A DNA stretch of 64,000 nucleotides from Boletus sp. NGJ (Eukaryota > Basidiomycota > Agaricomycetes > Boletales > Boletaceae), in assembly GCA_019096195.1 (NCBI GenBank), contig JAGTXK010000031.1, positions 1 through 64,000 of the forward strand, given 5' to 3'. Position numbers and translations under genes: made by a program. Shown here piece by piece: positions 3,237-55,517 of this stretch (position 1 is the stretch's first letter; each line of letters opens with the position of its first letter). The notes beneath the pieces are model-generated. The model was not told the DNA's origin, did no database searches, and worked only from the letters and a program-made list of their open reading frames with translations.

Positions 3237-4098
3237 TGTTATGCCTGTGTAACTTGGTGACACGTTTCCAAGTAATTGACCTCCTAGTTGATTACTGGAC
3301 TAGCTGAACTTGAGCAAATAGCTCCCTAGGCCTGAGTTCCCTAGGTATGGGGACTGATAGCTAGCTTTACACAGAGTCTCTCTTGGGGTTGGAGCCTTCT
3401 CTATGATCAATGGCTTAGTCTTGGGCTTGAGTGATAGTGGCACAGTCCTATCAGTGCAGAACCCTCTCTGTGTTGGTGTCACCGCTGGTTAAGCACGCGA
3501 GGGGGTAGTGAGGATACTGCACAAGTGCAAAGTGATTACAAGGAGTATCACAAGCACAAGTGTGATCACTTCCAGAGTGGGTGCAGATGTCTGAAGTGAT
3601 GTGGAACGTGAGTTGGGTAGATTACACGGGATGTGGTGTAGATCAAGGTTGGGAGATATAGGGGAATCAGCTAACTATATATAGGGCTTTCCCCCTTTAG
3701 GGCAGGCATAAGTGGAGTTATTATAAATAGGAAAGAGAATCAAATCAGAAATGAGGCTGGAAGTGATGGGATATAGGCTATGTATAAGAGAGCATAGTCA
3801 AGGAGGCCGTGTTTGATATGAAGCATAGGTTTAAAAGTAAAATGGGAAATGAAAGAGACACAGGATGGAGAGGATAGCCATCAGAGAGATCTGGGATCTC
3901 GCAGATGGCTGTTCACCACCTTAGAAGGCAGTGTCATCGAGGGAAGTACTGAGTGCCAGGTGTTCTCCCATAAGAAAGCTTTTCCATGTTGTCTTCAAGG
4001 AGTTGAATGAGAGGTCTCCCCACAAGTCATTGATGACTGGGAATGGAGGGAGTATGAAAGGGAGGGAAAAAGGTGTACCCCCTTCATTATCCATAACA
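3237..4098 (-). repeat. 3' LTR of element B
   Basis: 862 bp, TGTTATGCC...CCATAACA. Compared by eye with the 5' LTR, the first ~215 bp are about 87% identical while the remaining ~690 bp are about 97% identical, an uneven pattern. The TATA-like CTATATATAG (near 3673) fits a minus-strand promoter. The extra ORF upstream reads into this LTR as far as 3921. Confidence 0.9.
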
Positions 4099-5344
4099 TT
4101 ACCCTCCTTGTAGTCCTGAAGTTCCATCTCAGGAACTGTTATCTCTGTTGTTGATGAGGTAGTTGGAGAGATCTCAAGAGGAGTCAAGTAGGTGGTCTTG
4201 GGTTCCTGGGGGACAGATGGAGGTCCTGTATCCCATAATCCCATAGCAAGTGCATTGTCATCTGGGGCAACAACATTGCACATGTCCAGGGGCAACCATG
4301 TGACAGAATGGATAGGTGTATTGAGGGCAGTCGGGTTGTAGGTGCAATGTACTTCCACATTTGAAACACCGGGGTCGGTGGAGAAAACTGTTAGGAGGGG
4401 GGCGGTTGGTGAATCCTATGGGATTGGGATGACCATCCACTATGCTGGTATGGTTGGCAAGAGGGGTGTCTCTTGTGGGTTTGGCATGAGAAAGGGCAGG
4501 AGAGAGAGGGCTCCTCATTGTAGTTGTTCCCAGTGGAGGGGGAATACAGGTCATATAGAGATGGGAGAGTCCCAAGGAGAAGAGGACAGTTTTGGCCCAA
4601 TGTAGTTGTCAAGGTGGTTCTGAAATGGCTGGTTCTGGTATGGTGGAGGTGTTTTGCTGGGAGGAATTTGAAGCATCAATGGGGAAGTTGATAAGAGTTT
4701 GTTCTGAATCTCCTATTGTCAATCCAGCTGTTCTTGGAGTCCCCTCATGGTTTCCATTAACGTTTGAATTTCCCAATTGAGTGGGAAAAGGGAATGGAGT
4801 TCTGGCCCTATGACTACATGAGTTGCCTGAGGATGGGTCTGTAGGGGCAAAGAAAACTTCTCTTTGTTCATCGGACAACATGAAGAGAATGGGTTGGAGA
4901 CTTCAAGAGATGAGGGAGAGTGGGAGTAGGGATATGGAAAAATCAATTCCCCCAATATAGAGGAGGTTGAGGAGGAGATCCCAGAGGTAGAGGAGTTCAA
5001 CGGTGGTGGTGAGGGTCTCCTGTGAGGGAGTCTCACTTGTTGAGCTCCAGGCAGTCCCGGCGCGAATGGTGTGAAGGGCCACATAGACTTTGGAAGCATG
5101 GGTCACTTGAATCAATGTATCGTTTGCTGAGAAGAGAGGAAGTCCTTCAAGAGCATGAAGGGTTTCGGTACTTTCAAGAATGATAGCATAGAAAGTTCAT
5201 CGGATGAAGACTGGGAGACATTGGATTCTTTGGGAGAGGGGAATCTGGGCCATCCACTAGTACTCATGGTGATATGGGCAGTAGTTGATGTGGCAAAAGC
5301 ACCTGTGGGTGGAGGTGTGTTGAGGAATATCAAGGTCAGAGTAA
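3921..5344 (-). pseudogene. Extra 3' ORF region of element B (zinc-knuckle protein, runs into LTR)
   Basis: This lies where sequence downstream of integrase is expected in sense order. Minus-strand readings are rich in Pro, Ser and Thr and include a cysteine cluster, CFKCGSTLHLQPDCPQYTYP (about 4300-4400), of zinc-knuckle type, followed by a second Cys/His group. The last readable stretch, starting around EMELQDYKEGNVM (about 4090-4130), crosses the LTR edge and continues inside the LTR to 3921. The same MELQDY-EGNVM junction recurs in the truncated B2 copy at 54577. The protein resembles no family I can name; a nucleic-acid-binding role is inferred from the knuckles only. Fossil with several breaks. 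Confidence 0.6.
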
Positions 5345-5929
5345 TGTTACAACTACCCTGGGTAAGAATAGGCATCAACTTGGATGGTCAAGTAGTGATG
5401 AGCTACTAGGGTTGTAGGAGGTAGCTTGATGAGCTACGAGACAGAGAATCCCTTGATAGGGTCAAGGGTTCTACAACAGAGGGTCTTCCTCGTCGTAGGG
5501 TCAAGGGTTCAATGACAAAGGGTCTTCCTTGTTGTAGTCGAGGGTTCACTCAAGGGAGTGAAGTCGAGACACAGAAGAAGTGTTCACTCAAAGTAGAACA
5601 ATGACTTATAGAGGTCCAGAGGAACAATGATGAAAGTTCACCAAGTAGGTGTAAATTGCAGGATCGACTATGGAGGTAGGGTTTATATACATACTAAGAG
5701 TGGGAAAAGGATGAGTAAGCCACAGCACCGGAGAGATCCTATGGAGTGGGAAATAGAAGGGATCTTCCATATAAAGTCAGCGTAGAAGTACAGGTTGTGC
5801 AAGGGGTGCAAGGGTGGGCCTTGGCTACACGGAGTCCCACTGTGTAGCAAATGGTCCAAGGGAAGTTAGGAGGACGAGGTAAGAACAAGGACGACTAGCA
5901 AGAAGAAAGAAAAGGAGAGAATCGTAACA
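5345..5929 (-). repeat. 3' LTR of D1
   Basis: 585 bp, TGTTACAACTACCC...GAATCGTAACA. It holds two tandem copies of a GGTCAAGGGTTC...GGGTCTTCC motif near 5458-5530. TATATACATAC near 5692 is the likely promoter area. Confidence 0.92.
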
Positions 5930-6293
5930 TTACCCCCTGTTATACACAAAGTACCACTGAGCAATTTTAGTCCAAAGCATGGTAGGACCCACAGGGGGAT
6001 CTGGTCATGTTACTCATAGCGGCACTGTCAAAGATGTCCGGTTCATTGTAAGGGTCCGTCGGTGCGGTAGGATGGTTGTGGTGTGTAACCTCCATGGTAA
6101 GGCAATGGAGGAAGGAGCAGCGGCAGGTGAGATGAGCACTGTGGATGGGGGGTGGAGGAGGTACACGCCAAATTAAATGAGGTGAAGATGAGGTTTGGCT
6201 GGATGATGATGACGAAGTGGACGGAGTCTGTGGGTTCAGACAACGAGGTAGGGGACAGCGTGCTTGTGTGTGACCGGGTTCCCAACGCAAGCA

Positions 6294-7127
6294 TTAGGGG
6301 CATTGATAGACGGGGCAGTGGATGTGCAAGTGACCTAGATGGTGACATTGATAGCAGGCCTCGGAGTAGTGAGGGTGAGAGGGTCCTAAGGGGACCACTC
6401 CGTCACAACCTGTCCAGTAAGCTTCTTCGCGGCAGACGACCGTGAGTTCTTTGTTGCTGAGAGGGGACGATGAGGCGGATGGCGAGGAGGGTGCGGGGAT
6501 CATTACTGGGACGGGACGGTTGGCTAAGTCTCTCATGTATCTGTCGAGGTCATCTAGGAGCTCGACAGCTCTGAGCTGATGGAGGGCGTTAAGGAGCACT
6601 GCCTTGAGTTCACTGGAAATGCCCTGGAGGCGAAGTTGGGTTAGGGAAAGGTGGGCGTTGGCAGTGGTGCGATTGGCGATGGACTCCAGGTTGGCTGCTT
6701 GCAAATACACTTTGTAAAGGGAATATAAGGGGGAGGTATAGTTCAAGTGGGCCCCAAGTCCTAGTGCCATGCGTGGGTCTTCAAGATTCTCTGTGAGGCG
6801 AGTGACCTCAGCTAGGTCTGGGAAGTCATTGCGTAGGCGTGTGGCATAAATGGGGACGTCTACCGACATGATTAGTGTGGGGGTAGAAGCTAGCAAGATC
6901 AGTGTTGGTGGGCGTGGAAGGCAAGATTCGCCGCGGGGAGAAGGTAATAGAGGAGAATTAGGATGAAAGTAGTCATCAAGAGGGGAGCTAGAACGCGAGA
7001 GTGATGAAGGAGAGGAGAGAGTAGGAGATATAGTACGGCTACCAGGTATTGTAGGAAGAATATGTGAGGAGGGAGACATGGTGGCATCAGGGAAGGTCAT
7101 TGTGTTGGTGGTGAGGGGAATGATCAT
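6294..7127 (-). CDS. Extra 3' ORF of D1: Ser/Pro-rich protein with zinc knuckle
   Basis: This 277-codon ORF lies downstream of integrase in sense order, before the 3' LTR. The N-terminal ~70 residues are Ser/Pro/Leu-rich, the middle (~80-200) is helix-rich with a run on Arg and Leu, and the C-terminus carries CYQCHHLGHLHIHCPVYQC, a CCHC-type knuckle with further cysteines. More Cys-rich sequence of the same kind follows at 5967-6290 in another frame. The arrangement parallels the extra ORF of element B. Function is unknown; a second gag-like or nucleic-acid-binding protein is a plausible guess. The start is the ATG at 7127, and no better one is visible. Confidence 0.7.
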   Translation of the reverse strand: MIIPLTTNTMTFPDATMSPSSHILPTIPGSRTISPTLSSPSSLSRSSSPLDDYFHPNSPLLPSPRGESCLPRPPTLILLASTPTLIMSVDVPIYATRLRNDFPDLAEVTRLTENLEDPRMALGLGAHLNYTSPLYSLYKVYLQAANLESIANRTTANAHLSLTQLRLQGISSELKAVLLNALHQLRAVELLDDLDRYMRDLANRPVPVMIPAPSSPSASSSPLSNKELTVVCREEAYWTGCDGVVPLGPSHPHYSEACYQCHHLGHLHIHCPVYQCP

Positions 7128-7504
7128 GGTACAATTTTGAGCACGGTGATGGAGGGGAACGTCCTAGGGTGACATTTCTTATAGTCGAGCAGAGCAGACT
7201 TGGCATGTTTCAGATCCCGTTCGGGGACCCATGAGTCTTCTTCTGCAGAGTACCCTTTTCATCGGATCAGGAAGGAATGGCGAGACAGGGAGCCACGATG
7301 TCATAGGACTTTATCAATTTCATATTCCTCTTCACCGGCTATCAAGTCAGGTGGTGGTTTTATGAAATGTTTGCCGTATGTGGCATTCTCATGACATGGG
7401 GAGAGGAGCGAGGCATGGAAGACTGGGTGGATCTTCCATGTGGTTGGGAGGCAGAGTTTGTAGACGATGGGGGACAGGACATGCGTGATGGTAAATGGAC
7501 CTTC

Positions 7505-8239
7505 TCACTTCGGTGTGAACTTCGGGTCAGCGATGGAGTGTTTCAGGTTTCTGGCTTCTAGCCAGACCTTGTCACCTTTCTTGAACGGGGTGAAGTGATG
7601 GTGAGTGCAAGAGGCCATGACCTGTCGTGTAAGTTTGTGCACTGCTAGGGCTTCGTCCCTGGTGGCGGAAAGTTTCTGGATGCATTCCTCCAGAGCAGGA
7701 ATTGTGGAGTCAGGGACAACCAATGGGAGGGCATGGGGTTCGTAACCCATGAGGAGGAAGAACGGGGATTGCCCGGTGACGGAGTCGGGTTGGTGGTTGT
7801 GGATGAATTCGGTGTGGGAGATCTTCTCGGCCCAAGTAGTGGGTTCGTTGCCGCAGGAGATCTGGAGGTAGGTTTCGATTTCCTGATTGACCCATTCCGT
7901 TTCTCCGTCAGATTGGGGGTGGTAAGCAGTGGAGAGGGAAAGGTCATATTTCAGGAGTTTTCCAAGTTCTTTGGCAAAGGCCGAGGCGAACTGGGGTCCT
8001 TGGTCAGAGATAATTTTGTCGTAGAGGGCAAAGTGGAGGTACACTTTGTGGAAGAAAAGGGTTGCAATCCCTTCCACAGTCACTGATTTCTTCATAGGGC
8101 AAAGAATTACCCCCTTTGTAAGCCCATGGTCAACCACGACCAACAGGGAATCAAAGCCAGAGGACGGGGGCAAGTCGGTGATGAGGTCACAGGATACCTG
8201 GAGAAAGGGAAGTGAGGTGGTGGAGCAGATGGGGTTCAA
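7505..8239 (-). CDS. D1 integrase core
   Basis: This 244-codon open stretch holds the Gypsy integrase core: DLPPSSGFDSLLVVVDH (first Asp region), ISDQGPQFAS (second Asp), AYHPQSDGETEWVNQEIE (Glu region), then the YEPHALP and KKGDKVWLEARNL segments typical of the C-terminal part. The integrase would insert the cDNA copy in the nucleus. No chromodomain is visible after it; instead the extra ORF follows. Fossil, part of a broken polyprotein. Confidence 0.88.
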   Translation of the reverse strand: MNPICSTTSLPFLQVSCDLITDLPPSSGFDSLLVVVDHGLTKGVILCPMKKSVTVEGIATLFFHKVYLHFALYDKIISDQGPQFASAFAKELGKLLKYDLSLSTAYHPQSDGETEWVNQEIETYLQISCGNEPTTWAEKISHTEFIHNHQPDSVTGQSPFFLLMGYEPHALPLVVPDSTIPALEECIQKLSATRDEALAVHKLTRQVMASCTHHHFTPFKKGDKVWLEARNLKHSIADPKFTPK

Positions 8240-8422
8240 GGGGGGGATGGTGGGGTGAGTGTTTGCCTTGTTCTGCTGGCACGAAGGGCAGCCAGATATG
8301 TAAGCGTGAACATAGGAGGCCAGGCCAGGCCACCAGAAGTTGGCGGAGACAAGCTGTTGGGTTTTCTGGTAGCCGAGATGGCCAGCTGACTCATGGTCAT
8401 GGCAGTGTTGGAGAACCGAATG

Positions 8423-9124
8423 TCAGAGGGAATCGTCGGGGGGGATGTAGACGCAGTTGCAATAGGACAGAAGGCTATCTAGGTATGACCAATCAGAGAG
8501 GCGGGCGTGAAGGAATGTAGGTGCAGAGGTGTCTGTCACTTGGAGGTGTTGGAGGACGAGGGGGTCGGACAGGGAGGACTGCTGGATGAGGGAGGCCAAT
8601 GAGGTGTCAATTAGATTGACGAACATGAAAGGGGGAAGGAGGGTAACACCCTCGTTGTCGGCATCGGTCATCGGGATAAGATCGGGACAATGGGAAAGGG
8701 CATCTGGGCTGGTGAGGAGGCGGCCGGGGACGTGGATGATCTTGAGATCAAAATTGGTGAGGTCGAGGAGCCAGCAGGCTTGCTGGCGATTGAGGTTCTG
8801 AGGGGACTTAAAGTACAATAGGTTTTTGTGATCAGTAAAAACCTGTATGGGGAAGGGGGAGCCATATAGGTAGTGGCGCCATGATTTCAGCCCGCAGATG
8901 ATGGCAAGGAGTTCGCAGTCATAAATGTCATAGTTCCACTCAGCGGGAGAGAAGGACTGTGAGAGGTATGAGCAGGGGTGCCAGTCACTGTTGGCATCGG
9001 TCTGTAGGAGGATGGTGCCTGTGGCGTACTTCGAGGTGTCTGTGGCGACGGCGAAGGGGGCGGAGAAGTCTGGCAGGTGAAGGACTGGTTTTGCCAGGAA
9101 GAGACATTTAAGGTGGTTGAACAC
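8423..9124 (-). CDS. D1 RNase H and start of integrase (H2C2 area)
   Basis: 233 codons. The start includes the RT thumb/connection, PFAVATDTSKYATGTILLQTD, then YDIYDCELLAIICGLKSWRHYL, FTDHKNLLYF and HVPGRLLTSPDALSH, which are the RNase H landmarks of Ty3/Gypsy pol. The tail leads toward the integrase zinc-binding area. In life it degrades the RNA template during reverse transcription. Confidence 0.88.
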   Translation of the reverse strand: MFNHLKCLFLAKPVLHLPDFSAPFAVATDTSKYATGTILLQTDANSDWHPCSYLSQSFSPAEWNYDIYDCELLAIICGLKSWRHYLYGSPFPIQVFTDHKNLLYFKSPQNLNRQQACWLLDLTNFDLKIIHVPGRLLTSPDALSHCPDLIPMTDADNEGVTLLPPFMFVNLIDTSLASLIQQSSLSDPLVLQHLQVTDTSAPTFLHARLSDWSYLDSLLSYCNCVYIPPDDSL

Positions 9125-9247
9125 ATCCTGGCATTTGCTCGACCAAGCCCAGGGTTGGTTGAGCTTCGTGAGGTCAATGAGGGGGCGGGTGATTGTGGAG
9201 TAGTCCAGGATGAATCAATGGTAGAAGTTGGTGAAGCTGAGAAATGA

Positions 9248-10477
9248 TCAGACTCCGGTAACTTTGGTGGAGGCAGGCCACTTGGCGATCCTGTCAAGCT
9301 TGACGGGGTCCATAGCCAACTGGTTAGGGCAGACAATCATCCCGAGGTATTCCACCTCGTTGGTGGTGAAGGTACACTTCTCAAGCTTGAGGTGGAGGTC
9401 GAGCTCGGTCATGCGTTGGAGGACGCGTTTGGTTTGTTCGGTGTGCAGGGTATCGTCTGGGGAGAAGATGAGGAGGTCATCCATATAAATGATGAGCCAT
9501 CCTTCAGCGATCATGTCTCGGAAGGAGTCATTCATGAATCATTGGAAAGTCACGGGGGAGTTGCACAGGCCGAAGAACATGACAGTGGGTTCATAGAGGC
9601 CTTGGTGCGTGATGAAAGCGGCTTTCCACTGGTGGCTGTCTTTGATGTGTACATTGTTATACCCCCAGCGGACATCAAATTTAGTGAAGGTTGTCGCCCC
9701 CTTGAGCTTGTCGATGAGATTAGAGACTAAGGGGAGAGGGTAGGCGTCACGAACGGTGTGTCCGTTGATGTACTGGTAGTCTTGGCATGGGCGGAGATCG
9801 CCGTTCTTTTTCTTGCCGAAGAAGAAGGGGGAAGCTTGGGGAGAGGTTGACAGGCGGATTTTTCCCATCTTAAGGTGTTCATCAAGGAACTCTTCGGTCA
9901 CTTTCTGTTCATGGGGGGAGAGAGGGTATACCTTCCCGATCTTTGGGACAAAAGTTTCCTTGACGTTGATTTCATGGTCATACAGGCACGATGGGGGAAC
10001 ATGGTTAGTGGCCTCTTTTGAAAAGACGGAGGCATAGTCAGCATATGCTGCAGGGAGGGTTGGCTTAGGTTTTGCCTTCTCGGCAGCTTCTGCGAGTTCA
10101 GTGGCGACCATGATTTTGGCGACGATGGAGGAGGCAACATATTTGTATTCTCCTCGGATGATCCGGTGCATGACGCGGTTCCAGTTCACGTTTCGTAGGT
10201 ACTCTCGCTCTTTGGTTTCCTTCTGGAGGAAGCTGTGGAGGTGGTGACAGGTCTGAAGGTTTATGTCGACGTGGCCTGGTTGGGACGAGGGTTCATCTGC
10301 TTCGGCGGGGGTGGGTCTGGTCCTCGTGTGATAGAGGTTGGCAGACTGGTCAAGGGTTTCATCAAGGGTGAGGGTGTTAGCTGCCCAGTCAATGGTCGGA
10401 TTACAAGAGTGGAGCCAAGGTTGGCCAAGGATGACGTTCTCTTGTCCACAGGAGATGACATGGAGGGTCGTCCTCAT
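9248..10477 (-). CDS. D1 reverse transcriptase (with protease tail)
   Basis: Ty3/Gypsy RT landmarks are clear. In order: VILGQPWLHSCNPTIDW (end of protease), YDHEINVKETFVPKIGKVYP (linker), ASPFFFGKKKNGDLRPCQDY (fingers), [52 protein letters not shown], and the catalytic YMDDLLIFSPD (around 9470-9500). The order and spacing match chromovirus-type pol. The stretch is fossil and lies in more than one reading frame. Confidence 0.88.
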
Positions 10478-10579
10478 GAAGATGCCCTTGATGTTAACGA
10501 AGAGGTCACAGGTGAACTTGATGTCTCCGTTCTTGTTGAATGAGGTGTCTGCGTTCCGAATGCGGATGGGGGTGTGGAG

Positions 10580-10798
10580 TCATGTAGTTGGGAGTTTATG
10601 TTTTCGCATGAACTGGTAGTCAATGCAGGAGATTTCTGCACCACCGTCCACAAGGGCTCTGGTATCGACGGCTTTCTTAGCGTGTGCAGGGACGAGGAGT
10701 TGAATAGGGATATGAATGCCTTTCAATTTCAACTCTACTGTTACAGCGGCACAACTAAGAGAAGGGGAAACATGCATTGAAGGTGTTTTCCATTTCAA
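10580..10798 (-). CDS. D1 retropepsin-like protease start
   Basis: A short open stretch carrying DTRALVDGGAEISCIDYQF, the aspartic-protease active-site region of Gypsy elements, preceded by IPIQLLVPAHAKKAVDT. It overlaps the end of gag by four bases. The protease would cut the Gag-Pol precursor. Confidence 0.75.
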   Translation of the reverse strand: MKWKTPSMHVSPSLSCAAVTVELKLKGIHIPIQLLVPAHAKKAVDTRALVDGGAEISCIDYQFMRKHKLPTT

Positions 10799-11763
10799 AA
10801 ACCTGAAGAGACTTGTCCGATGGTCTCTCCATCAGAGTCTCCCTCTTCTTGTTCGACAACCCTGACTTTCTTGGCAGGAGAAGTCTTCACCTTCTTGATG
10901 GGAGAGGTGAAGGTGGTACATGCAGTGGTGATGTGACCCGGTTGGTGACAGCGGAAGCAAAGCTTTTGGTCGAAGCAATGTTTCCGTTCTTCAGGGGTCA
11001 ACTTGGGGATGGAGATGGCGTCGACGTCCATGGCATCAGGGTCTCGGGGTTTGGAGGAGATGGGCGAGGAGAAGGAGTGGTAGGTGTGTGTGAACGGTTT
11101 GTTACTCCTTTTGGCGATTTCGTCGGCTCTTTCCCATTGTGTTTGGAAATGGATGGCATGGGAGTACCACTCTTCGATGGTGGTGGGTACTGTGTCCATG
11201 GACATGATCCGTCGCATAAGCCCCGATGGGATCCCGGCGGAGTAGTACCTGATGAGGACATTTGGGTCAATGATCTTAGCAAGGGAAGCGTTGTTCTGGA
11301 ATTCCAATGTGTACTGTGTGAGGGGAGGGGAGTACGAGTTGTCTCGCTTCTCAACCATTCGCTTGGTGGAGAGCCAGGCAATGGCATTACCAGTAGTGTC
11401 TCGGTGTTTGAATGCCTTTTCAAAGGCGGTGATGAAGTCGGCGAATGACCCGAGCGTGATGGTGACACCGTTGATGGCGTTCTGTCGATAGGTGGTAGCC
11501 CAGATGAGGGCTGGTCCTTTGGTCATATAGAACAAGGCGAAGGTGATTTGTTTGGCATTGGTGTCATAGACTTTGGTGTTGACGTAGAGATAGAACTGAA
11601 CAGTGTTCAGCCAAGGTACTGAGGTGTCAAAGGAGCCATCATAGGCTTCAGGAGTATCAATACGGAGTTCGGTGGGTCGAGCTGTCAAAGACATGGGCGA
11701 CAGGGGAGGGGGTGGTGCAGAGAACAAGAGTACTGCTGTCAATGGTGTTGGAGACGGTGGCAT
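10795..11763 (-). CDS. D1 Gag
   Basis: 322 codons. The capsid-like domain begins near residue 45 (TPEAYDGSFDTSVPWLN) and contains WATTYRQNAI, FADFITAFEKAFKH and YSAGIPSGLMRRIM, typical of Ty3/Gypsy Gag (retrotransposon gag family). The nucleocapsid part carries a single CCHC zinc knuckle, CFRCHQPGHITTAC (about residues 270-283), followed by a basic KKVKTSPAKKVR run. It would form the particle in the cytoplasm. A diverged relative lies in D2 at 22540-23400. Confidence 0.9.
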   Translation of the reverse strand: MPPSPTPLTAVLLFSAPPPPLSPMSLTARPTELRIDTPEAYDGSFDTSVPWLNTVQFYLYVNTKVYDTNAKQITFALFYMTKGPALIWATTYRQNAINGVTITLGSFADFITAFEKAFKHRDTTGNAIAWLSTKRMVEKRDNSYSPPLTQYTLEFQNNASLAKIIDPNVLIRYYSAGIPSGLMRRIMSMDTVPTTIEEWYSHAIHFQTQWERADEIAKRSNKPFTHTYHSFSSPISSKPRDPDAMDVDAISIPKLTPEERKHCFDQKLCFRCHQPGHITTACTTFTSPIKKVKTSPAKKVRVVEQEEGDSDGETIGQVSSGF

Positions 11764-12027
11764 GGGGGTTCTTGGTAGATGTAGATGGTCTGAGAGTTGG
11801 TGTGATAAGTCAAGGGCTGCATCTTGTTGTTGTTGGGATGGGAAATCAAGGTCGAGGTCAGTGTCTGGTGATCCCTCTTCATGGTCAGAAGAGTTGTCAT
11901 TGGTGGGGGGTGTCTCGGCATGTGCATGAGGGTTCCACCACGTAGGGTTCAGGGTAGGGCGTTGGTGAGCGATGGTGGATGGAGGACTATAACAGCGATA
12001 GCCTCAGGATAGAGAATTTACACCTTT

Positions 12028-12612
12028 TGTTACGACTACCCCAGGTAAGGATTGGCGTTAACTTGGATGGTTGAGTAGCGACGAGCTACCGGGGTCATAG
12101 GAGGTAGCTTGATGAGCTATGAGACAGAGAATCCCTTGGTAGGGTCAAGGGTTCAACAACAGGGGGTCTTCCTCATCGTAGGGTCAAGGGTTCAACGACA
12201 AAGGGTCTTCCTTGTTGTAGTCGAGGGTTCACTCAGGGGAGTGAAGTCAAGACACAGAAGAAGTGTTCACTCGAAGTAGAACAATGACTTATAGAGGTCT
12301 AGAGGAACGATGATGGAAGTTCACCAAGTAGGTGTAAATTGCAGGATTGACTACAGAGGTAGGGTTTATATACATACTAAGAGTGGGAAAAGGATGAGTA
12401 AGCCACAGCACCGGAGAGATCCTATGGAGTGGGAAATAGAAGGGATCTTCCATATGAAGTCAGCATAGAAGTACAGGTTGTGCAAGGGGTGCAAGGGTGG
12501 GCCTTGACTACATGGAGTCCCACTGTGTAGCAAATGGTCCAAGGGAAGTTAGGAGGACAAGGTAAGAACAAGGATGACTAGCAAGGAGAAAGAAAAGGAG
12601 AGAATCGTAACA
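12028..12612 (-). repeat. 5' LTR of D1
   Basis: 585 bp, TGTTACGACTACCC...GAATCGTAACA, collinear with 5345-5929. It keeps more CpG sites than the partner, and most differences are CG-to-TG/CA type. Confidence 0.92.
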
Positions 12613-14300
12613 GGGGATATCTTCCCAGTTTTGAAATGTTCATTGATGAATTCCTTGCATGCCTGTTGTTCCAGTGGGTTTAAAGGATATGCCTTTGCTC
12701 CTTTCAGAAGAAACAAATCCTTTAACTTGATTGCATGATCATATAATCATGAGGGAGATAGTTTGGTGATAGTCTTCTCCATGAAGATGTCTTTGTATTC
12801 TTTGAACGTGTTATAGTCACAGAAGGGGGTACATCTTTTCCTCTCCCTTCACCCCCTGTAGGACTATGGGATGACTTGTTCTTCAACTTGGATCTGGGAT
12901 TCCTCCATGACACCAACTCAGGCATTGCCCCATCTAGAACTCCCTTTCTAGGAAGTTACCTATTTGGTTTGAACACTGCCTTCCTATTTCATTGATATAT
13001 GCATTTCACCTCTTCTGATCTGATCATAGACATTGCCTCCTTGGCTGTGCTCTCTCACATACAGCCTAGTATTCCAACCTACCATTTGACTGATGCCTTG
13101 ATCCATTATGGTAATCTTCTGTCTATGACTTATGATTACCATATATGTTATGAAGCCTGCCCTAGATGGGTAGGGCCTATATATAGGGACACTGGCTCTT
13201 CATGTAACTCTAACCTAGATCTACACAACTTCCCATATAATCTACCAGCTTCTCCAGCTCTCAGCTCCACTTCACCTCAGAAGCTCGCTTCCACTCTGGA
13301 GGTGATCGCCCTTGTGCTCGTGGTCGTCTTCCTCATCACTGCACACTTGTGTGGCCTTGTTGCCGTCTGAACCCGCTTCTAATGCTTTGGCAACTCCAAC
13401 GACCAACAGAGGTTGGTCTGTGCAAGCCTGGACTCCACCACCGGCACTAGGCCGTGTAAGCCCAGAACACTTAGTCACTGGCCTCCGCATTCCAGTCTGC
13501 CCTTCCTTCTTGGAGGATTGCACCACTGTGGTAAATCCAAGACTTCACCATTGGTCATAGAGGCAACCAGGACACTCTACGTAAAGCTAGCAGCTAGTTC
13601 CCAGTCAGAGGAATCATTGGGCCTCTGGAGGTATTTTCCCCTCAAGTCCTGCTAGTCCAATAATCAAACAGGGTTGATTATTTGGGAACATGTCACATTG
13701 TTACCCAGCATAACAGAATGCATCTGGTAATGTGGTTTTTGCCTTTGGCACCAGTTGGGTGATCTCAGTAGATAGAGTTGTTCTTTTGATAACAAACTCT
13801 GGTATATCCCCATGTGCATTGAAGAATTTGGCCCATTGTAGGGGTGTCCAACAACAGAAGGTTTCATAGAGTCCATCCTACACATACTCCTCTTCATCAT
13901 ATTTCAGATATCGAGAGATCACTATTCTAGGCTTCCTGGTGGATCTCCTTGGGTCCATTGGTAGGAAGACAGCACTATGGTTACCTGTTCTTCTGTCCAG
14001 TTGATTTCAGGGTTCACTGCCCTGAGCCATGGAAGTCCTAAGATGACTTTGTCCTTGCTGCGGTTGAGAACATAGAGATCCTGCCATTCTCATATTCCTC
14101 CATAGTTCAACACAATGTTGGTCTTCTCTTTGATGGTATCTGATTGGTTTTGGGTCCCATTGACATTCCAAGCTTGGACTGGGGTGTCCAGCTTCTGTGT
14201 GGGCAATCTCATCTTCTTGACCGCTTGTCAAGAAATGAAACATCTGGTTACTCCACTGTTGATTAAAGTGTTTGTCCCAGTGATTTTGCCATCCCATTTT
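12613..14300 (-). pseudogene. Element B protease and first part of RT (interrupted)
   Basis: Sense order runs downwards. About 14010-14290 holds a protease remnant with an INSGVTRCFIS active-site-like segment and VILGLPWLRAVNPEINW. About 13716-13900 holds the linker, WCQRQKPHYQMHSV. 12613-12808 holds LYDHAIKLKDLFLLKGAKAYP and EFINEHFKTGKISP, the start of Gypsy RT. The coding run stops at the border of D1, and the rest of RT is not found on the other side. A solo B2 LTR sits in the middle. Fossil with many breaks. Confidence 0.75.
12809..13715 (+). mobile_element. Solo LTR, subfamily B2, in element B pol
   Basis: 907 bp, TGTTATAGTCACAG...CAGCATAACA, flanked by GAACG (12804-12808) and GAATG (13716-13720), one mismatch. 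A TATA-like CTATATATAGG (near 13177) gives plus sense. Its start encodes a diverged form of the GLWDDLF peptide seen in other B2 LTRs. A B-type LTR sitting inside a B element shows continued activity of the group after element B landed. Confidence 0.88.
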
Positions 14301-14387
14301 CAGATCGAGAGAGGAATGTGAATAGAATTACTTCTCGATCCAGACATAAATACAGGGGCAATTGTATAGGAGGAGAGTAACATTGGT

Positions 14388-15820: not shown

Positions 15821-15907
15821 GTCTATCTCCTGATAGGCGGTTCTATTCCTCTGAATAGGTGGGAGTGTTGGACTAGATAGTCGCAACAATTTATAACCTT
15901 GATTTTT

Positions 15908-17319: not shown

Positions 17320-17538
17320 GTAATTGTGTGGGAAGCAAACACCACATGGGCCATGTAGTTGATGGACTGTTTCTGCATTCATACCTATAACCCATTTTTC
17401 ATGCCACACCATCATGTCAACTTTTAACCCAATGACAGATGTGTAGCCTCTTCAAATTGTATGCCATGAAAAGTACTACTATCCAAAGGGGACACATATC
17501 TTTTATGTACATGTTTTCACCTGAGATGTTGACTTACC
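17320..17538. other. Unassigned stretch upstream of BTB pseudogene
   Basis: It starts with the GTAAT duplication of element B. Just before 17539 a reading frame TYHDKYLFWPD resembles the N-terminus of basidiomycete BTB proteins in another phase, so the BTB gene probably began here. Nothing else was seen. Confidence 0.35.
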
Positions 17539-27737: not shown

Positions 27738-27784
27738 GTATCCCCCTCTTAGGCCTGAACCCCTGAAGGCCTAGGCAAGAGACA

Positions 27785-47139: not shown

Positions 47140-47622
47140 TGTAATAATATAGGAAATTTTCAAACTTTTCAAACGCTTATTTACTTCTCATTTTCTTTAA
47201 CTCTTTTCTTCATAAGTCACATGACTGTGCACGTGACCATGGGAGAACATCACATGATAGGTCTAGAACCTATGATGTCATATGACATCATACCTCATGT
47301 GATCCACGCCTCTTTAATTTTCGCTCTTCTCACACAGCCCTATTAATCTCTGCCTTACTATATATAGTAGTTTAGCACATGCACTGCTTGGTCCATGCAC
47401 ACTCTTCTCATGTATATAAGCTAGCACTTTGACAACTGGTACCCCCAGTCTAATCCATTTGTCTCTTCCTCCAATAACCTATTAGCTTCGGCCATCGGTC
47501 ATCGTAGGGTTAGGAATAGTCAGGCCTAAGACTCCCCACCTGATTCGCTCAGCCAGGACCTGTGTAGCCTGCGAAGCACGTTCCGAGCCTTATGGATTGT
47601 TTTCCGAAAGGGATTCATAACA
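47140..47622 (+). repeat. 5' LTR of element C
   Basis: 483 bp, TGTAATAATATAGG...GATTCATAACA. It contains CACATGACTGTGCACGTGAC, a TATATATAG near 47358 and TGTATATAAGC near 47409 as promoter signals. Solo relatives are at 1586-2095 and 16142-16621. Confidence 0.94.
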
Positions 47623-48232
47623 CTTGGATTAGACTGCTATACACAACGCTTGGACTCCAGAGCTAAGGAGATATATGCAGGCCCAGCATTTAAGGGACAT
47701 CTCTAGTATTCACCACTTGACGGTGACGAGAAAAGCACTCGCCAAAACGCTTGAATATATGCTCATCTGGCATCATAAATAAGAATAACGTTGCTGCCGG
47801 GCATAGTGCACTAGCCCCACTTCTCAGGTGGTTGCCGACTTGAGTGTACGCTGGTTCTACAATAGTGAACCCAGGTTCTCGTGATTACCTGTGACATCAC
47901 GAAGTAACGATACGGAGATTTATCTCGCCTTTCTCCTGTGTTATACCTGCTCGTAGTAAAGCAGTCATCCTCTGGTCCCCCATCACCATTGCCCATCATT
48001 TTCAACAACTTGTATTTCAACTCTTACAAAGGAGTAGGGACCCCAGAACTGGATTGTAAGATATCTGGTAGTAAGGTCCTGAAAGAAGACCAACACAGGA
48101 AAAGGAAAACCTACATCAGAAACCCCAACAAAATCAGACCTCTCTGCCCCTCCTCTGCATTTGCACTTTATCGCATTGCCTACTTCCACTCCTACCTTCA
48201 CCCCACATCACTCTTAAAACTGAACCCCAAAT

Positions 48233-49393
48233 ATGTCTAGAGTCGACATTGACGAACTCGTCCAAAAGCTCGCCGACCTTACCCAGGAACACGATAAAGA
48301 AAACATCACTAAGAAAATCACTGATCCTGGAAAATGGGACGGCACAAGGTCAACCTTCTGCCCTTCGTGGATTAAGCTCCATCTCTGGGTCAACGCCCAG
48401 AAATGGAAAAACAATAAAATCATGGACATTGCAGTTCTCTCACGCCTTGAGAGAAAGGCAGAAGCTTTTGCTCAGCTGATAATGGAGCATTATCTTGATG
48501 AAGAGGCGACCATTGAGACAGACGCAAATGGAATTATGCTACCGGCAAAAGGAGTTGATGCATGGCCCACCTGGAATAGGTTACAGGAGCAGATCAAAAC
48601 TCATGTCTGTATCGACACCTTGGCCCACGAGTCATTAAGGAAACTCGAGGCCTTGAAACAAAACAGTCATCCTATTGACCTGTTCCTCCAAAAATTCAAG
48701 ATCCTGAGAAAAGAGTCATATATTGACGACCATCACGCAGAAGTTCTACTGAAGAAGGTAGTAGACTTTAAAATATACGAAAGGTCACGATTAAACTCTC
48801 CGGCTCGAAACTTTGACTATGAGGATCTGGTTATCAATTACAGGGTAATCGGATGAGTGTTCGAACAGATAGCAAACAAACGCGGACCCCCTATATGATC
48901 TCAACCTCCTCGCTCGTCATTCCCTCCTCCCCATGGGCAGCCCCCACACAATTCATATCGCCCCACCTACACGGCAGTAGGTACACAACCGGGTCACGGT
49001 GCACCCATGAAAATAGGAGTCCAGCAGGCTGGACCTTCTAAGGAAACTAGAACCTGTTTCCACTGTGGCAAACCCAGCCACATAAAACCGAACTGCCCCA
49101 CGAACCCTTTCAAACAGACTGGTCGTCCAATGCAACACCAGATATGGGATTGGAATCAAGGCTCGTATGTCAAGCAATCACAGGGAGAAAAAGAGTATCC
49201 CTCTTTTTTTAATGAAACCCAATCCCGCGCATACGCATCTCGACCACTCCTGCAACCTCCTGCAGCTACAGTGGCACCAAGTGTAGCATCAAGGGCATAC
49301 GTTTCCGATGAGGCGGAAGCGTATTACAGAGATAAATTTGAAGTGGAAGCCAAAGCCAGAGCTGCACAGGCTTTAAATGGACAGCGCCAATGA
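48233..49393 (+). CDS. Element C Gag with zinc knuckle
   Basis: ATG at 48233 opens 207 codons of Tf1/chromovirus-type Gag (MSRVDIDELVQKLADLTQEH, KLHLWVNAQKWKNNKIMDIA, LRKLEALKQNSHPIDLFLQK). The nucleocapsid part (49007-49393) has a CCHC knuckle CFHCGKPSHIKPNC and ends in an Ala/Glu-rich helix (EAEAYYRDKFEVEAKARAAQ). Structural protein of the particle. Fossil. Confidence 0.88.
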
Positions 49394-50187
49394 GTGAAGA
49401 GGGAACTCAGTGGCACAAACATTCTTCTTTTTCATCTACTCTTACAACATGTACAAGTACCGATTTTCCTATCTCCGATCTTTCTTCTGTTTTACGTAAT
49501 CTATCAATGAAATCTGCGAGGGCATCTCAATTGAGCGCGGCACCAGAATTAAGTGTACTTAATTCCCTCGTGAAACAACAAAAAATATCGAATATCTATA
49601 AACCCACGAAGGTCACGTTAAACCAAGCATCTACGCTTTCCTATGATGGAGAATTTTCCCTCAAAACCATAGTATCATGCAACGTTGATGGCCAGTGGTT
49701 GTGTTGCCGTTTCCAGTCCCTCCTGGATTCAGGAGCATCACACACCTTCATAGATCAGGACTATGTAAAACGTCACGGAATACCTTTTTATACCATAGAT
49801 AACCCCATTAAGATATATAACGCTGATGGTTCAGTAGGAGCTATCGGACCGATCCGTCATGCAGTAACACTGATGGTGGAAATTGAAGGACACTACGAAG
49901 TTATAGACACTTACATATCTAAATTAGGAACTCATCATATGATCATTGGGTATGATTGGCTATATCGTCACAACCCTGACATTGATTGGGTAAAGCAGAC
50001 AATTACCTTTCCCCACTGTACCTCGTACTGTAAAATTATGGGCTTAGGACCTACTTCCTCTTACAAACCAGCTCAAATACGTACAATAGAAGAAGGACTC
50101 AAAGAAAAAGTCCCTTTAGCTTATCACGAGTTTTTAGACATTTTCTCGGAGAAAGAATCTCAAAGGATGCCTTTACGAAAACATTGA
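49390..50187 (+). CDS. Element C protease region
   Basis: 265 codons, the start overlapping the Gag end by four bases (ATGA). The active site is SLLDSGASHTFIDQDYV, the hydrophobic partner segment is MIIGYDWLYRHNPDIDW, and the tail LAYHEFLDIFSEKESQRMP leads into RT. Aspartic protease of Gag-Pol. Confidence 0.9.
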   Translation: MSEEGTQWHKHSSFSSTLTTCTSTDFPISDLSSVLRNLSMKSARASQLSAAPELSVLNSLVKQQKISNIYKPTKVTLNQASTLSYDGEFSLKTIVSCNVDGQWLCCRFQSLLDSGASHTFIDQDYVKRHGIPFYTIDNPIKIYNADGSVGAIGPIRHAVTLMVEIEGHYEVIDTYISKLGTHHMIIGYDWLYRHNPDIDWVKQTITFPHCTSYCKIMGLGPTSSYKPAQIRTIEEGLKEKVPLAYHEFLDIFSEKESQRMPLRKH

Positions 50188-50376
50188 GATCACGCAATCG
50201 ATCTCAAAGAAGACTTCATCCCAAAGAAAGAATGTGTTATTCCCCTTTCGGACATCGAGATGGAAGAAGTCAGAACATTCATCAAAAAGGAAGTCAAAAA
50301 GGGTTACGTCAAACCCTCTAAATCTCCGCAAATGTCCCCTGTCTTCTTTATTCCAAAAAAGGACAGCAAAAAATGA

Positions 50377-51477
50377 ATGGTTATGGACTACCGATATTTA
50401 AATAAAGGAACCATTAAAAACTCCTATCCGCTCCCTCTTATCCCGCAGTTAATTGATCGACTCAAAAACACGGACCTATTCACGGCTATGGATCTTCGAT
50501 GGGGATATAACAATGTCCATATCAAAGAAGGCAATGAATGGAAAGCAGCTTTCATCACCCCTATCAGAGCATACGAGCCTACTGTTATGTATTTCAGTCT
50601 CACAAACTCTCCTCCCACATTCCAAACCATGATGAATGACATATTTAATGACATGTATGCTGTCGTCGTCATTTACATCGACAACATTATGATATTTACA
50701 TCAAAAAAGACAAAAAAACAACACGAAGAAGTTGTGAAGGAAGTTCTACGCCGCTTACACAAGAATGACCTTTACATAAAACCAGAAAAGTGTACCTTCT
50801 CGGCAGAAAAAGTGGACTTTTTGAGAATGGTTGTATCTAAAGAGGGGGTAGAGATGCAGTTGAAAAAAGTAGCTGGGGTCATGGATTGGCCAATTCCTAC
50901 TTGATTAAAGCAACTCCAAGGTTTCCTCGGACTTTGTAATTATTATAGACGATTCATAGAAGGCTTCGTGCAAATCGCTCGACCCTTGAACGATCTTACC
51001 AAGAAAGACGTTCCATTCAAATGGGGTCCAGATCAACAAGAAGCATTCACAAACTTAAAAAGAAAATTTACGAAAGCACCGCTTCTCACGTATCCCAATT
51101 GCGATCAAGAAATGCGCGTAGAAACCAATGCCTCGGACATCGCCATGGGAGCAGTGCTCTCTACTTTGTGTAATGATGGAAATTTGCGACCTGTAGCCTT
51201 TATCTCTCATTCTTTTGACAGCACAGAGCACAACTATCCAATCTACAACAAGGAACTGCTTGCAGTAATATGTGCCCTTGAAGAATGGCGTCACTATTTA
51301 ATTGGTCACGAAAGGTTTGAAATCTGGACTGACCATAAAAATCTAGAGTATTGGAAGAAGCCTCAAACACTCAGTGGACGTCAAGCACGTTGGCACGCAC
51401 TTCTCCAAGAATTTAATTATTCCTTCATATACAAACCTGGATCATCTAATGGAAGAGCTGATGCTTTATCCCGATGA
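50377..51477 (+). CDS. Element C reverse transcriptase and RNase H
   Basis: RT palm landmarks: [53 protein letters not shown], the catalytic strand in [12 protein letters not shown], then [20 protein letters not shown]. RNase H follows: [51 protein letters not shown], ending [14 protein letters not shown]. Standard Ty3/Gypsy order. Fossil, more than one open piece. Confidence 0.9.
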
Positions 51478-51573
51478 CCAGATCACGGTGACGCAGTTGT
51501 AGATCATAATCAAAATGTCACCGTTCTTCCCCCTTCTATTTTTATAAATCACGTTTCTCTCTCTTCAGACCTT

Positions 51574-53070
51574 ATGACAAAAATACAAAAAGAATCCAAA
51601 AAATATGACGTAGACGCCATAAACAACTTTCTTTTCTATTCTGAACTTAATCTATTCAAAAACGAAAAAGATCAAATATATGTTCCAGAACCATTACGTA
51701 CCGAAATCATTACTTTATGTCACGACTCGCCCATTGCAGGACATGGCGGTCATTCCAAAACTATACACACTCTTTCTCAATATTTCTTGTGGCCAGGAGT
51801 CACAAAGGATGTAAAAAATTACATAGATCACTGCCAAGTGTGCGCCCTCACGAAGGGTAAGCAAAATGCACCGGCAGGAAAAGTTATTCCTCTACTCGCA
51901 GCAAAAAGACCATGGGAAGATTTATCAGTGGACTTTATCACAGGTCTACCTCCATCACAATCCTTTACCACAATCTGCATTGTTGTGGACAGATTCTCTA
52001 AAGAAGTCATTTTCATACCTACGTATGATACATGTTCCTCAAAAGACCTTGCTATTTTATTTAGAGACCATGTCTGGTCTACACACGGACTCTCTTCTAC
52101 CCTCATTTCAGATCGAGGACCACAGTTCGTTTCTGCATTCACACAAGAGCTTTGCAAGCTTCTTGGAATAAAACAGAAAATCTCTACGGCATATCATCCG
52201 CAAACAGATGGACAAACAGAGTGCGTTAACCGAGATCTCGAGCAATATCTTCGCGCATATGCTGGAAAGAAACAAAACGACTGGGTCGAATGGCTGAAGT
52301 TAGCCCAATTCTCTCACAATAATACCGTCACAACGGCTACCGGAGAAATTCCCTTTAAAGTAACAAGAAACTACGTACCACGTATGGGTTTCAAAGGGCA
52401 TCTCACGGGTTTTGCAGACAAAATTGGGCATAACCATAAGGATATTGAAAAAGTGCTGGAAGCTACACGTGAGAGGATGATCACCTCTTCCAATAAAAAA
52501 CAATCTATGGCACCAGATTATTCTATTGGTCAGCAAGTCTGGCTATCAACAGATAAATTAAAACTTCCTTATATGGCTAAAAAACTCACACAAAAATGGA
52601 TTGGCCCCTACGTGATCACTAGGGTGCCTCCTAATGCCATAACACTCAAGCTCCCAAATTCTGTTCACATCCATCCAACTGTGAACATCTCTCACATCAA
52701 ACCATATAAAGAAATGCTGCCTGGACAGCCTAAATCTCGACCTGATGCAATAGAGATTGACAAAGAGGGAGAAGAGCAGTTCGAAGTTGATTTTATTGCC
52801 GCTTCCAGGATGAAGAAAGGTAAACTAGAATATCTGGTCCATTGGAAAGGTTACGATGAAACTGATCGTACATGGGAATCTGAAGAAATTCACATCATGG
52901 CACCAGATGCAGTCAAAGATTTCCATCGTCTTAACCCTTCCACACCATGCAAGCTTCATGGTTTATCTCTATCAGCTTTCACTTCTTTATTTTCACCTTA
53001 TGAAAACTTCACCGAAAACGAAAAACAACGACTCGCCTGGAATTCAAGTCTTAAGGAGGGGGTAGTGTAA
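51574..53070 (+). CDS. Element C integrase with chromodomain
   Basis: 498 codons, the longest ORF in the window. HHCC zinc domain (HDSPIAGHGGHSKTI, HCQVCALTKGKQN), catalytic core with DLSVDFITGLPPSQ (Asp), LISDRGPQFVSAFT (Asp) and AYHPQTDGQTECVNRDLEQ (Glu), a GPYVITRV/HPTVNISHIKPY C-terminal domain, and a chromodomain KKGKLEYLVHWKGYDETDRT around residue 415-440. The ORF runs a few bases into the 3' LTR. Confidence 0.93.
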   Translation: MTKIQKESKKYDVDAINNFLFYSELNLFKNEKDQIYVPEPLRTEIITLCHDSPIAGHGGHSKTIHTLSQYFLWPGVTKDVKNYIDHCQVCALTKGKQNAPAGKVIPLLAAKRPWEDLSVDFITGLPPSQSFTTICIVVDRFSKEVIFIPTYDTCSSKDLAILFRDHVWSTHGLSSTLISDRGPQFVSAFTQELCKLLGIKQKISTAYHPQTDGQTECVNRDLEQYLRAYAGKKQNDWVEWLKLAQFSHNNTVTTATGEIPFKVTRNYVPRMGFKGHLTGFADKIGHNHKDIEKVLEATRERMITSSNKKQSMAPDYSIGQQVWLSTDKLKLPYMAKKLTQKWIGPYVITRVPPNAITLKLPNSVHIHPTVNISHIKPYKEMLPGQPKSRPDAIEIDKEGEEQFEVDFIAASRMKKGKLEYLVHWKGYDETDRTWESEEIHIMAPDAVKDFHRLNPSTPCKLHGLSLSAFTSLFSPYENFTENEKQRLAWNSSLKEGVV

Positions 53071-53548
53071 TAACATAGGAAATTTTCAAACTTTTCAAAC
53101 ACTCATTTACTTCTCATTTTCTTTAACTCTTTTCTTCATAAGTCACATGACTGTGCACGTGACCATGGGAACACATCACATGATAGGTCTAGAACCTATG
53201 ATGTCATATGACATCATACCTCATGTGATCCACGCCTCTTTAATTTTCGCTCTTCTCATATAGCCCTATTAATCTCTGCCTTACTATATATAGTAGTTTA
53301 GCACATGCACTGCTTGGTCCGTGCGCACTCTTCTCATATATATAAGCTAGCACTTTGACAACTGGTACCCCCAGTCTAATCCATTTGTCTCTTCCTCCAA
53401 TAACCTATTAGCTTCGGCCATCGGTCATCGTAGGGTTAGGAATAGTCAGGCCTAAGACTCTCCACCTGATTCGCTCAGCCAGGACCTGCGTAGCCTGCGA
53501 AGCACGTTCCGAGCCTTGTGGATTGTTTTCTGAAAGAGATTCATAACA
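53066..53548 (+). repeat. 3' LTR of element C
   Basis: 483 bp, TGTAATAACATAGG...GATTCATAACA. About a dozen differences from the 5' LTR, mainly transitions. Confidence 0.94.
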
Positions 53549-54390
53549 GATGTAAGGATATTGAGCTTGTGTTGCAGATCCATGTCCCACACAGCCTATG
53601 AGCATGTCTATGAAAGAGAAAAAACCTGCACAGCTAGTCAGGTGGACAGAGAATGCCTCACTTGAGCAATGGATTGAAATTCTAAACTGGCATTATGCCA
53701 ATGGCAAGAATCAGACAAGGACAGCAGGCCATTTTAATAAACTGTATCCCACCCTCCACCTTACCCAGCCACAGATTTCTGAATGGATCAAATGTGAAGT
53801 GAAATGGTGGACAGAGTATAACAGCAGTGGAGGCTTGTCTCGCTCTGTAAAGCAAGTATGTCAGACATAGCACCTGGAGGTGACAAAGATGCTGGATCTC
53901 TGGGTTTTAAAGGCATGGCAGACAAGATTCTATTGACTGGCAATGTTCTCCGCCAAAAGTGGAAGGAATTTGCTAACCTTGCTGCCATATCAGAGGATGA
54001 GTAGCTTTGTCTCAGTGAAGGGTGGTTAATCCAATACAAGGAACGAAACAGCCTGAAACAGATGAAACATCATGGTGAAGCTGCATTTGCAGCATCCAAC
54101 ACAATTGACAAGGAATGGCTTTGAATTAGGGGGGTTATCAAAGAAGGTGGTTACAAGTAGTATGGTGTTTTTAATGGCGATGAAACAGAGTTAAATTATG
54201 CATGTGTATTTCTGTTCTAATGTCAGGTTCTAAATCTCAAGTTAGTTTGCACAGTATGGCACCTGATCTTGGACTCTTTGACACACAAAACTCTGGCATG
54301 AAGGGGAACAAAAATAGATTAACATATTTTTTCACAGTGAACACTGAGGGCTTAATAAAGTTAACTCCACTTATCATTGGAAAGGCATAC

Positions 54391-55517
54391 TACCGGTGCC
54401 CCTACTGTTGGGTGGTTGCCCCCAACCATCCACAGTATGCTTGCCCATGAAGAGCTTGCACCTACTGTGGTGGAAGAGGACATGGTTATCAGACCTGTTC
54501 CAGCCAGGGAGTCTTTGATGACTCCTGGGACCTTACCAATTACGAGGAGAACAAGGGGAATAGAGAAGTTCTTGAGATGGAACTTCAAGACTATGAAGAG
54601 GGTAATGTTATGGTTAGGGAAGAGGGTACATCCTTTTCTCTCCCTTCACCCCCTCCAGGACTATGGGACAACCTCTTCCTCAACTCTGACCAGGGATTCC
54701 CCTGCAACACTAACACAGGCATCACCTCATCCAGAGCTCCCTTTCTAGGCGATGCCTATTTTGACCATGACACTGCCTCTTTTTCATTTCATTGATATAT
54801 GCATTTCACCTCTGATTCAATCAATAGACATTGCCTCCTTGGCTGTGCTCTCTTGTATACAGCCTAGTATTCCAAATCCTCCATTTGACTGATGCCTTGG
54901 TCTCATATGGTAATATTCTGTCTGCAACTCATTATTACCATATACAATATGAAGCCTGCCCTAGATGGGAAAGGCCTATATATATGGGCATTCGCCCTCC
55001 ATGTAACTCTAACCTAGATCTACACAACTTCCCATGTAATCTACCAGCTCTCCCAGCTCTCAGTTCCACTTCACCTCAGAAGCCTACTCCTGCTCTGGAG
55101 GTGATCACCACAGTGCTTGTGATCGTCTTCTTCATCACTTCGCACTTGTGTGGCCTTGTTGCTGTTTGCTCGCATCGCTAGATGGCAACTCCAACGCCAA
55201 TAGAGGTTGGCCCGTGTAAGCCCAGGACTCCACCACTGACAGCACAATAAATCCAGGACTCCGCCACTGGTACCATATTGGTCAGGACTCTACCATTCCT
55301 TTGGATTGTGCCACCATCCTCAAAGTCCGAGACTCCAACATCAGTCACAGAGTAGCAGCTCCAACCCCAAGGGAGGCTCTACATTAAAGCTAGCCATTGA
55401 TCCCTAGTCCAAGGAATCTTTGGGCCTCAGGAGGTATTTTCCCCTCAAGTCTGGCTAGTCCAGTAATCACACAGGGTTGATTACTTGGGAATGTATTACT
55501 TGTTACCCAGCGTAACA
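54391..55517 (+). mobile_element. Truncated B2 element: 3' ORF end plus LTR
   Basis: Plus sense. 54391-54605 is the end of the internal region and encodes Cys-rich CPYCWVVAPNHPQYACP and CTYCGGRGHGYQTC (two zinc-knuckle-like groups) followed by EMELQDYEEGNVMV. The LTR is 54606-55517 (912 bp, TGTTATGGTTAGG...CCAGCGTAACA). All sequence 5' of 54391 is lost. The flanks CATAC (54386-54390) and TATAC (55518-55522) nearly match. The ORF from MELQDYEEG runs on into the LTR to about 54795 (72 codons). Confidence 0.82.

Follow-up and report, generated by a model that had tools for sequence, protein, structure and literature searches.

A reading frame that runs from internal sequence into the long terminal repeat in two related element families of Boletus sp. 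NGJ

Can the end of a retrotransposon protein lie inside the long terminal repeat (LTR)? The question is raised by the LTR elements B and B2 in the window analyzed here, the first 64,000 nucleotides of contig JAGTXK010000031.1 of Boletus sp. NGJ (C37:1-64000 of a 32.8 Mb assembly with 141 contigs). The 3' internal region of B2 contains two long open reading frames (ORFs), here named Y and X; X lies at +1 relative to Y and continues into the LTR. Comparison of the copies makes it probable that the LTR-encoded stretch yields protein and that purifying selection maintained it during the active life of the element, in a layout like that of nef and sag. At the codon level this reading is largely supported by frame, position, codon-position bias and a stop-G-ATG junction. 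The features concerned are listed below.

3237-4098, minus strand: 3' LTR of B, 862 bp, ends TGTTATG...CATAACA, TATATAT at LTR +416
3921-4127, minus strand: LTR-crossing frame of B, from the ATG at 4127 to the stop at 3923-3921, 68 amino acids, 58 of them LTR-encoded
4099-4109, minus strand: polypurine tract AAGGAGGGTAA of B, immediately adjoining the LTR
4129-4131, minus strand: stop codon TGA of frame Y in B, one base 5' of the ATG of the LTR-crossing frame
4132-4400, minus strand: 3' end of frame Y (ORF3) of B, with zinc knuckle CFKCGSTLHLQPDC and in-frame stops in the window copy
3921-4415, minus strand: full open stretch of frame X in the B copy of the window, stop to stop
4416-5344, minus strand: upstream ORF3 region of B, frames Y and X with stops in both, interrupted by element A at 5345
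54577-54795, plus strand: LTR-crossing frame of a truncated B2 copy, 72 amino acids plus stop
54606-55517, plus strand: B2 LTR, 912 bp, TGTTATGG...GCGTAACA, TATATAT at +372
12809-13715, plus strand: B2-type LTR, starting with the conserved frame VIVTEGGTSFPLPSPPVGLWDDLFF
24071-25016, minus strand: another B2-type LTR opening with the conserved frame
59685-60662, minus strand: B2-type LTR that likewise opens with the conserved frame, TATAAAT at +400

A first-pass annotation of the window had described an ORF passing from internal sequence into the LTR in B (3921-4358) and B2 (54577-54795), and both coordinates and translation agree with that description. Frame X traverses the polypurine tract into the LTR in both families, with 58 LTR codons in the window copy of B and 62 in that of B2. 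From the ATG at 4127 the B frame reads MELQDYKEGNVMDNEGG...DDTAF up to the stop ending at 3921; the B2 frame reads MELQDYEEGNVMVREEGTSF...FSFH from 54577 to the stop ending at 54795 and enters the LTR at 54606. The residues KEGN are encoded by the polypurine tract, and because only the third base of the N codon belongs to the LTR, residues from V onward are LTR-encoded. The TATATAT at +416 of the B LTR places the coding part upstream of a TATA-like box, in the presumed U3. The same frame is retained as VMVTEGGTSFSLPSPPPGLWDDLFF in the LTR at 24071-25016, as VMVIEGGTSFPLPSPPIGLWDDLFF in that at 59685-60662, and also at 12809-13715. The first two of these LTRs are 68% identical overall, and the earlier claim that they keep a related open frame despite their divergence held. 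A pattern EGGT.F.LP...LW.DL.F is common to B and B2, with an in-frame length difference. The 164-residue B frame had 142 matches in the genome, and many of these are open. The frame was open over 58 codons in 23 of the 26 B LTRs of testable length (28 B LTRs in total) and over 32 codons in 32 of 38 B2 LTRs, so the open frame is not confined to a few copies; such confinement is what the first-pass annotation had named as speaking against its reading.

The comparison proposed there, of synonymous and nonsynonymous change at the LTR start against the rest of the LTR, showed change concentrated at third positions and a low ratio of nonsynonymous to synonymous polymorphism (pN/pS) in this frame and not in the other two. 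The alignments comprised 28 B and 38 B2 LTRs, taken from the retrieved loci and not from the whole genome set. The query was 3236-4101, which begins 3 bases early, and the coding part was defined as LTR bases 1-174 in B and 1-97 in B2. Diversity at codon positions 1/2/3 was 0.125/0.106/0.227 in the coding part of B and 0.164/0.144/0.198 in the rest of the LTR; the corresponding values for B2 were 0.114/0.080/0.250 and 0.204/0.190/0.174. Because CpG columns were hypervariable (0.42-0.54 vs 0.12-0.21), expectations were drawn from columns elsewhere in the LTR that match in base and CpG class. The context-matched ratios of observed to expected diversity were 0.62/0.62/1.28 for B and 0.56/0.44/1.23 for B2. 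None of 2076 overlapping control windows elsewhere in the LTR matched the B2 contrast, and permutation within context classes yielded p = 0.0013 for B2 LTR 1-97 (29 copies) and p = 0.006 for B LTR 1-174 (8 copies). The pN/pS value in the LTR frame was 0.33 in B and 0.27 in B2, beneath every control window (0.43-0.92 for 23 windows in B, 0.42-1.2 for 34 in B2); the control windows overlap and use the first 20 rows of each alignment, and the frame value uses all rows. The two other frames had values of 0.85-0.98 (B) and 0.82-1.13 (B2).

Between the two LTRs (L002 and L007) of the B2 element at C109:651500-659789, 51 of 52 differences are transitions, and transversions therefore mostly record older change. 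In the B2 LTR frame, transversions at positions 1/2/3 amounted to 0.017/0.013/0.082, compared with 0.064/0.070/0.058 in the rest of the LTR (p = 0.0028). CpG decay was considered as the cause of the third-position excess and rejected: with context matched, the signal persists in both families, and with transversions it persists in B2 alone. A CGA-decay asymmetry in X offered just two usable sites and was not used. The transition excess between L002 and L007 and the hypervariable CpG columns reflect decay of the copies, which we take to be methylation-like or like repeat-induced point mutation. As a negative control, family A was used (22 of 44 matches), which has its own zinc-knuckle ORF 3' of the integrase. 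Of its 22 LTR starts, 20 are interrupted by a stop in this frame, and the ratios were 0.59/1.06/0.57. Further into the B2 LTR, at +98..+199, neither an X nor a Y codon pattern was present (29 copies).

The element at C109:651500-659789 has GCTTG on both flanks as a short target duplication and inverted LTR ends TGTTA...TAACA, and its LTR pair is identical at 866 of 918 sites. A Chromo match above the cut-off (1.9e-10) was obtained with the L052 peptide, and an integrase core match in L044 (E 0.0026) fell below the curated cut-off. The order of integrase followed by chromodomain was found in B2, the family examined for it. B2, and by homology B, would be chromodomain Ty3/gypsy-type elements. 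No env was recognized in the element parts viewed.

Upstream of the LTR, the main 3' ORF is frame Y, which ends 33 nt before the LTR at a TGA kept in 29 of 29 aligned B2 copies (negative positions count back from the LTR). The LTR-crossing frame, which the first-pass annotation had taken for an extra ORF, is thus better described as X overlapping Y. Frame Y contains the zinc knuckles CYECGRQGHLRPAC ... CTYCGGRGHGYQTC; the Pfam match to zf-CCHC (E 0.0096) was below its cut-off, and the best match in the PDB was AIR2 (E 0.0013). The indel-scrambled copy L068 was left out of the 29-copy B2 alignments and kept in the counts of 30; L014 and L018 were left out of the eight-copy B sets and kept in the counts of 10. 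The comparison of B with B2 used 28 B2 copies, without L063 and L068, and one comparison of the 3' region used 20 copies (L039-L058). Columns present in fewer than 60-70% of copies were skipped. The anchor of L017 is off by one because of a one-base insertion in its polypurine tract.

In the 29 B2 copies, three segments from the end of pol to the N-terminal part of ORF3 each had a Y pattern (0 of 4000 permutations apiece). Farther downstream the frames alternated: X was favored at -720..-541 (p = 0.0022) and at -440..-271, where relative diversity was 0.50/0.64/1.73 (0 of 4000 permutations), and Y at -540..-441 (p = 0.0037) and, weakly, at -899..-721 (p = 0.02). The knuckles (p = 0.0005) and the tail (p = 0.0008) followed Y, and no significant codon-position pattern was found at -37..-1. 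Among the eight B copies, Y was significant in the N-terminal part (p = 0.004) but not in the knuckles (0.093) or tail (0.091), X was found at -400..-271 (p = 0.012), and two middle segments were patternless. Distances between B and B2 followed X at -440..-300 (0.349/0.268/0.568) and Y in the knuckles (0.356/0.482/0.359) and tail (0.244/0.546/0.362). Taken by themselves, transversions pointed to Y in the tail and strongly to X at -440..-271, where those present in at least two copies numbered 0, 0 and 15 at X positions 1, 2 and 3. Over the N-terminal part of ORF3 they tended toward X position 3 instead of Y (0.0473/0.0605/0.0751). X and Y thus both seem to encode protein, and the signal of each peaks in different parts of the region. 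As in overprinted genes, each frame in B2 shows its own selection, mostly in different segments. Frame openness speaks against this: in the three of six chosen copies with a long enough Y block, that of X was not unusual given Y, and that of Y was unusual given X (0/3000, 0.005, 0.007); the X frame of L052 has three stops in the block.

The stop of Y, one base and the ATG of the LTR-crossing frame form a stop-G-ATG junction in 39 of 40 copies. It reads TGAGATG in 30 of 30 B2 copies, and the 10 B copies have TGAGATG (six), TAAGATG (three) or TGAGGTG (one). Constraint on Y reaches -34, and X is free at -125..-34 (X positions 0.32/1.13/0.41). Between the pol stop and Y lies a 55-codon ORF (-1359..-1194 in the 29 aligned B2 copies), in frame with Y and with a strong codon-position signal. 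It begins 9 nt past the pol stop, and its TAG (27/29) directly abuts the ATG of Y (28/29). This looks like a series of stop-restart junctions, as a sequence pattern only. The termination-reinitiation of SART1 and victoriviruses, according to a passage of PMC5972666, involves a stop and a start that overlap or are adjacent. B and B2 resemble these systems in the close and conserved stop and start; they differ in that SART1 is a non-LTR element and that one base separates the two codons in B and B2.

We propose that the 3' coding part of B and B2 would extend beyond the polypurine tract. Its order would be integrase, chromodomain, the zinc-knuckle ORF Y and then X, which would start inside Y or at the ATG at -29 and end in the LTR upstream of the TATA-like box. 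The LTR part would belong to U3, so that only its copy at the 3' end of the RNA would be read. Translation of the LTR stretch and its route are what we infer from these patterns. The most likely route, to which we give about an even chance, would be a stop-restart at stop-G-ATG after Y, yielding a small protein of 68 (B) or 72 (B2) amino acids in the window copies; alternatively, the LTR stretch would form the C-terminal end of a longer X product that overlaps Y. By analogy, our guess is that the LTR-encoded product may be an accessory protein of the element. More tentatively, and with somewhat less than even confidence, the whole 3' end might be a chain of coupled, overlapping genes (pol stop, 55-codon ORF, Y, overprinted X and a small gene ending in U3), a retrovirus-like accessory set in a fungal-type Ty3/gypsy element without recognized env.

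The longer product would be an overprinted protein X of about 400 codons with the LTR stretch as its C terminus, started through leaky scanning or frameshift at one of two conserved upstream ATGs. These ATGs lie at -1127 (25 of 29 B2 copies) and -959 (27 of 29), and the strong X constraint within ORF3 described above, at -440..-271 and -720..-541 in B2, at -400..-271 in B, between the families and in the transversions, argues for such a protein. X is also open over -270..+90 in 26 of 30 B2 copies, but in 3 of 10 B copies, and over -440..+90 in just 15 of 30 and 2 of 10. Since only Y is constrained at -125..-34, the constraint on X is interrupted before the LTR, and in L059-L062 upstream X and the LTR part lie in different frames. 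With the openness of X given the Y protein not unusual either (P 0.15, 0.05, 0.27), we consider a long X possible but doubtful. It is unlikely that the LTR stretch is the end of the zinc-knuckle protein, reached from Y through a fixed one-base difference in some lineages and possibly through a programmed +1 frameshift in others: the TGA at -33 ends Y in all aligned B2 copies without the one-base difference. Such a fusion does exist in L059-L062 (4 of 8 matches to query residues 67-139, in frames of 447-478), where the knuckle frame passes openly into the LTR frame without a break, with minor frame switches further upstream; together with L052 these copies form a near-identical young group (98.9-99.9%). 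The truncated window copy joins its knuckle-tail frame to MELQDY elsewhere and has a stop within its knuckles.

That no protein is involved, and that the LTR start is a cis element (polypurine tract, att end or regulatory sequence) with the open frame as a by-product, we regard as quite improbable. The constraint inside the LTR is three-base periodic in two lineages, position 3 changes about as fast as matched LTR columns when all substitutions are counted (1.28 in B; 1.23 and 1.02 in B2), and both the low pN/pS and the B2 transversion phase argue for a coding frame. Two observations fit a cis element: the stretch -29..-1 shows conservation irrespective of codon position, as expected near a polypurine tract, and transversions in the LTR part of B are lowered equally at positions 1/2/3 (0.0155/0.0169/0.0201 vs 0.0378 in the rest), with no phase effect (p = 0.34).

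These two observations also count against an LTR-encoded protein end, and so do several others. The first-pass annotation had read the conserved MELQDY-EGNV junction as evidence of a protein. Because it lies within -29..-1, the junction peptide is not by itself such evidence, and its conservation is, judged from the alignments, partly for DNA reasons; for the same reason the stop-G-ATG need not be conserved for translation. The contrast in B was matched by 4.3% of 1095 overlapping control windows elsewhere in the LTR, and distances between B and B2 within the LTR were only weakly ordered over positions 1/2/3 (0.252/0.352/0.402). Five B2 copies (L052, L059-L062) are not independent because they are 98.9-99.9% identical. 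Past about +97 the B2-type frame varies in length and frame, even among copies about 99% alike, so that conservation covers 58 LTR codons in B and about 32 in B2. The estimate that the last 50-70 residues or so are LTR-encoded thus agrees with the 58 and 62 codons of the window copies and is too long for the conserved part of B2. The openness of X, not being unusual given Y, was dropped as evidence of coding. Three X stretches matched zero Pfam families at E ≤ 1, and no homology to Nef or Sag was found in that search; Pfam includes models of both. The best PDB match of the B stretch had an E value of 0.85, and a structure model of the 68-residue B peptide was poor (pLDDT 57.6) and was not used.

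Two further features bear on the B copies of the window.

5345-12612, minus strand: element A, with LTRs at 5345-5929 and 12028-12612 that are 93.7% identical; it truncates the B 3' region at 5345
16639-17322, minus strand: partial B-type LTR with 96.9% identity to the 3' LTR of B; the frame is intact apart from a break near its start

The LTR at 12809-13715 was considered as the 5' LTR of B and rejected, its sense being plus and that of B minus. Element A carries an ORF at 6294-7163 with the zinc knuckle CYQCHHLGHLHIHC, 3' of the integrase; a Pfam search with it returned zero families at E ≤ 1, its frame is not continued through the A LTR, and a predicted structure (6297-7094) was of low confidence (pLDDT 37.2) and was not used. 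A second LTR element lies on the plus strand at 47140-53548, with repeats at 47140-47622 and 53066-53548 that are 96.9% identical; its 530-amino acid ORF ends at 53070, which puts the stop codon just within the 3' repeat. The repeat pair 27170-27740 and 34918-35508 (94.9% identical) flanks minus-strand ORFs that are pol-like by eye. In a diverged, tandem-like repeat at 57306-57965, several open frames on the minus strand overlap one another and are rich in P, S and T.

Coding in U3 is known from some retroviruses, and the case of B and B2 would be a variant in a non-retroviral LTR element. According to a passage of PMC12789967, the U3 of HIV-1 partly holds nef and that of MMTV holds the entire sag ORF. 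B and B2 would share with these the retroviral feature of U3 coding in the 3' LTR; they belong to a different element class, with an X that has no Pfam match and no env recognized in the parts viewed. Cases of a sense ORF between pol and the 3' LTR are reviewed for plant elements in a part of PMC7264820, and a figure legend of PMC2864245 marks an additional ORF of unknown function in fungal Gypsy elements. These are alike in the position of the ORF and differ in that the passages concerned describe no ORF entering the LTR and no overlapping second frame. An excerpt of PMC3248453 likewise names no ORF running into an LTR, and a limited open-access literature search of abstract openings revealed no description of an LTR-terminated ORF in a fungal Ty3/gypsy element.

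The overlap of X and Y would be a case of overprinting that can be traced over many copies within one genome. Non-retroviral U3 coding under protein-level selection would suggest that such genes can arise wherever an ORF sits near the polypurine tract. It would also mean that the ends of proteins may be located in LTRs, which annotation usually treats as non-coding, with a risk that genes and repeats are cut wrongly.

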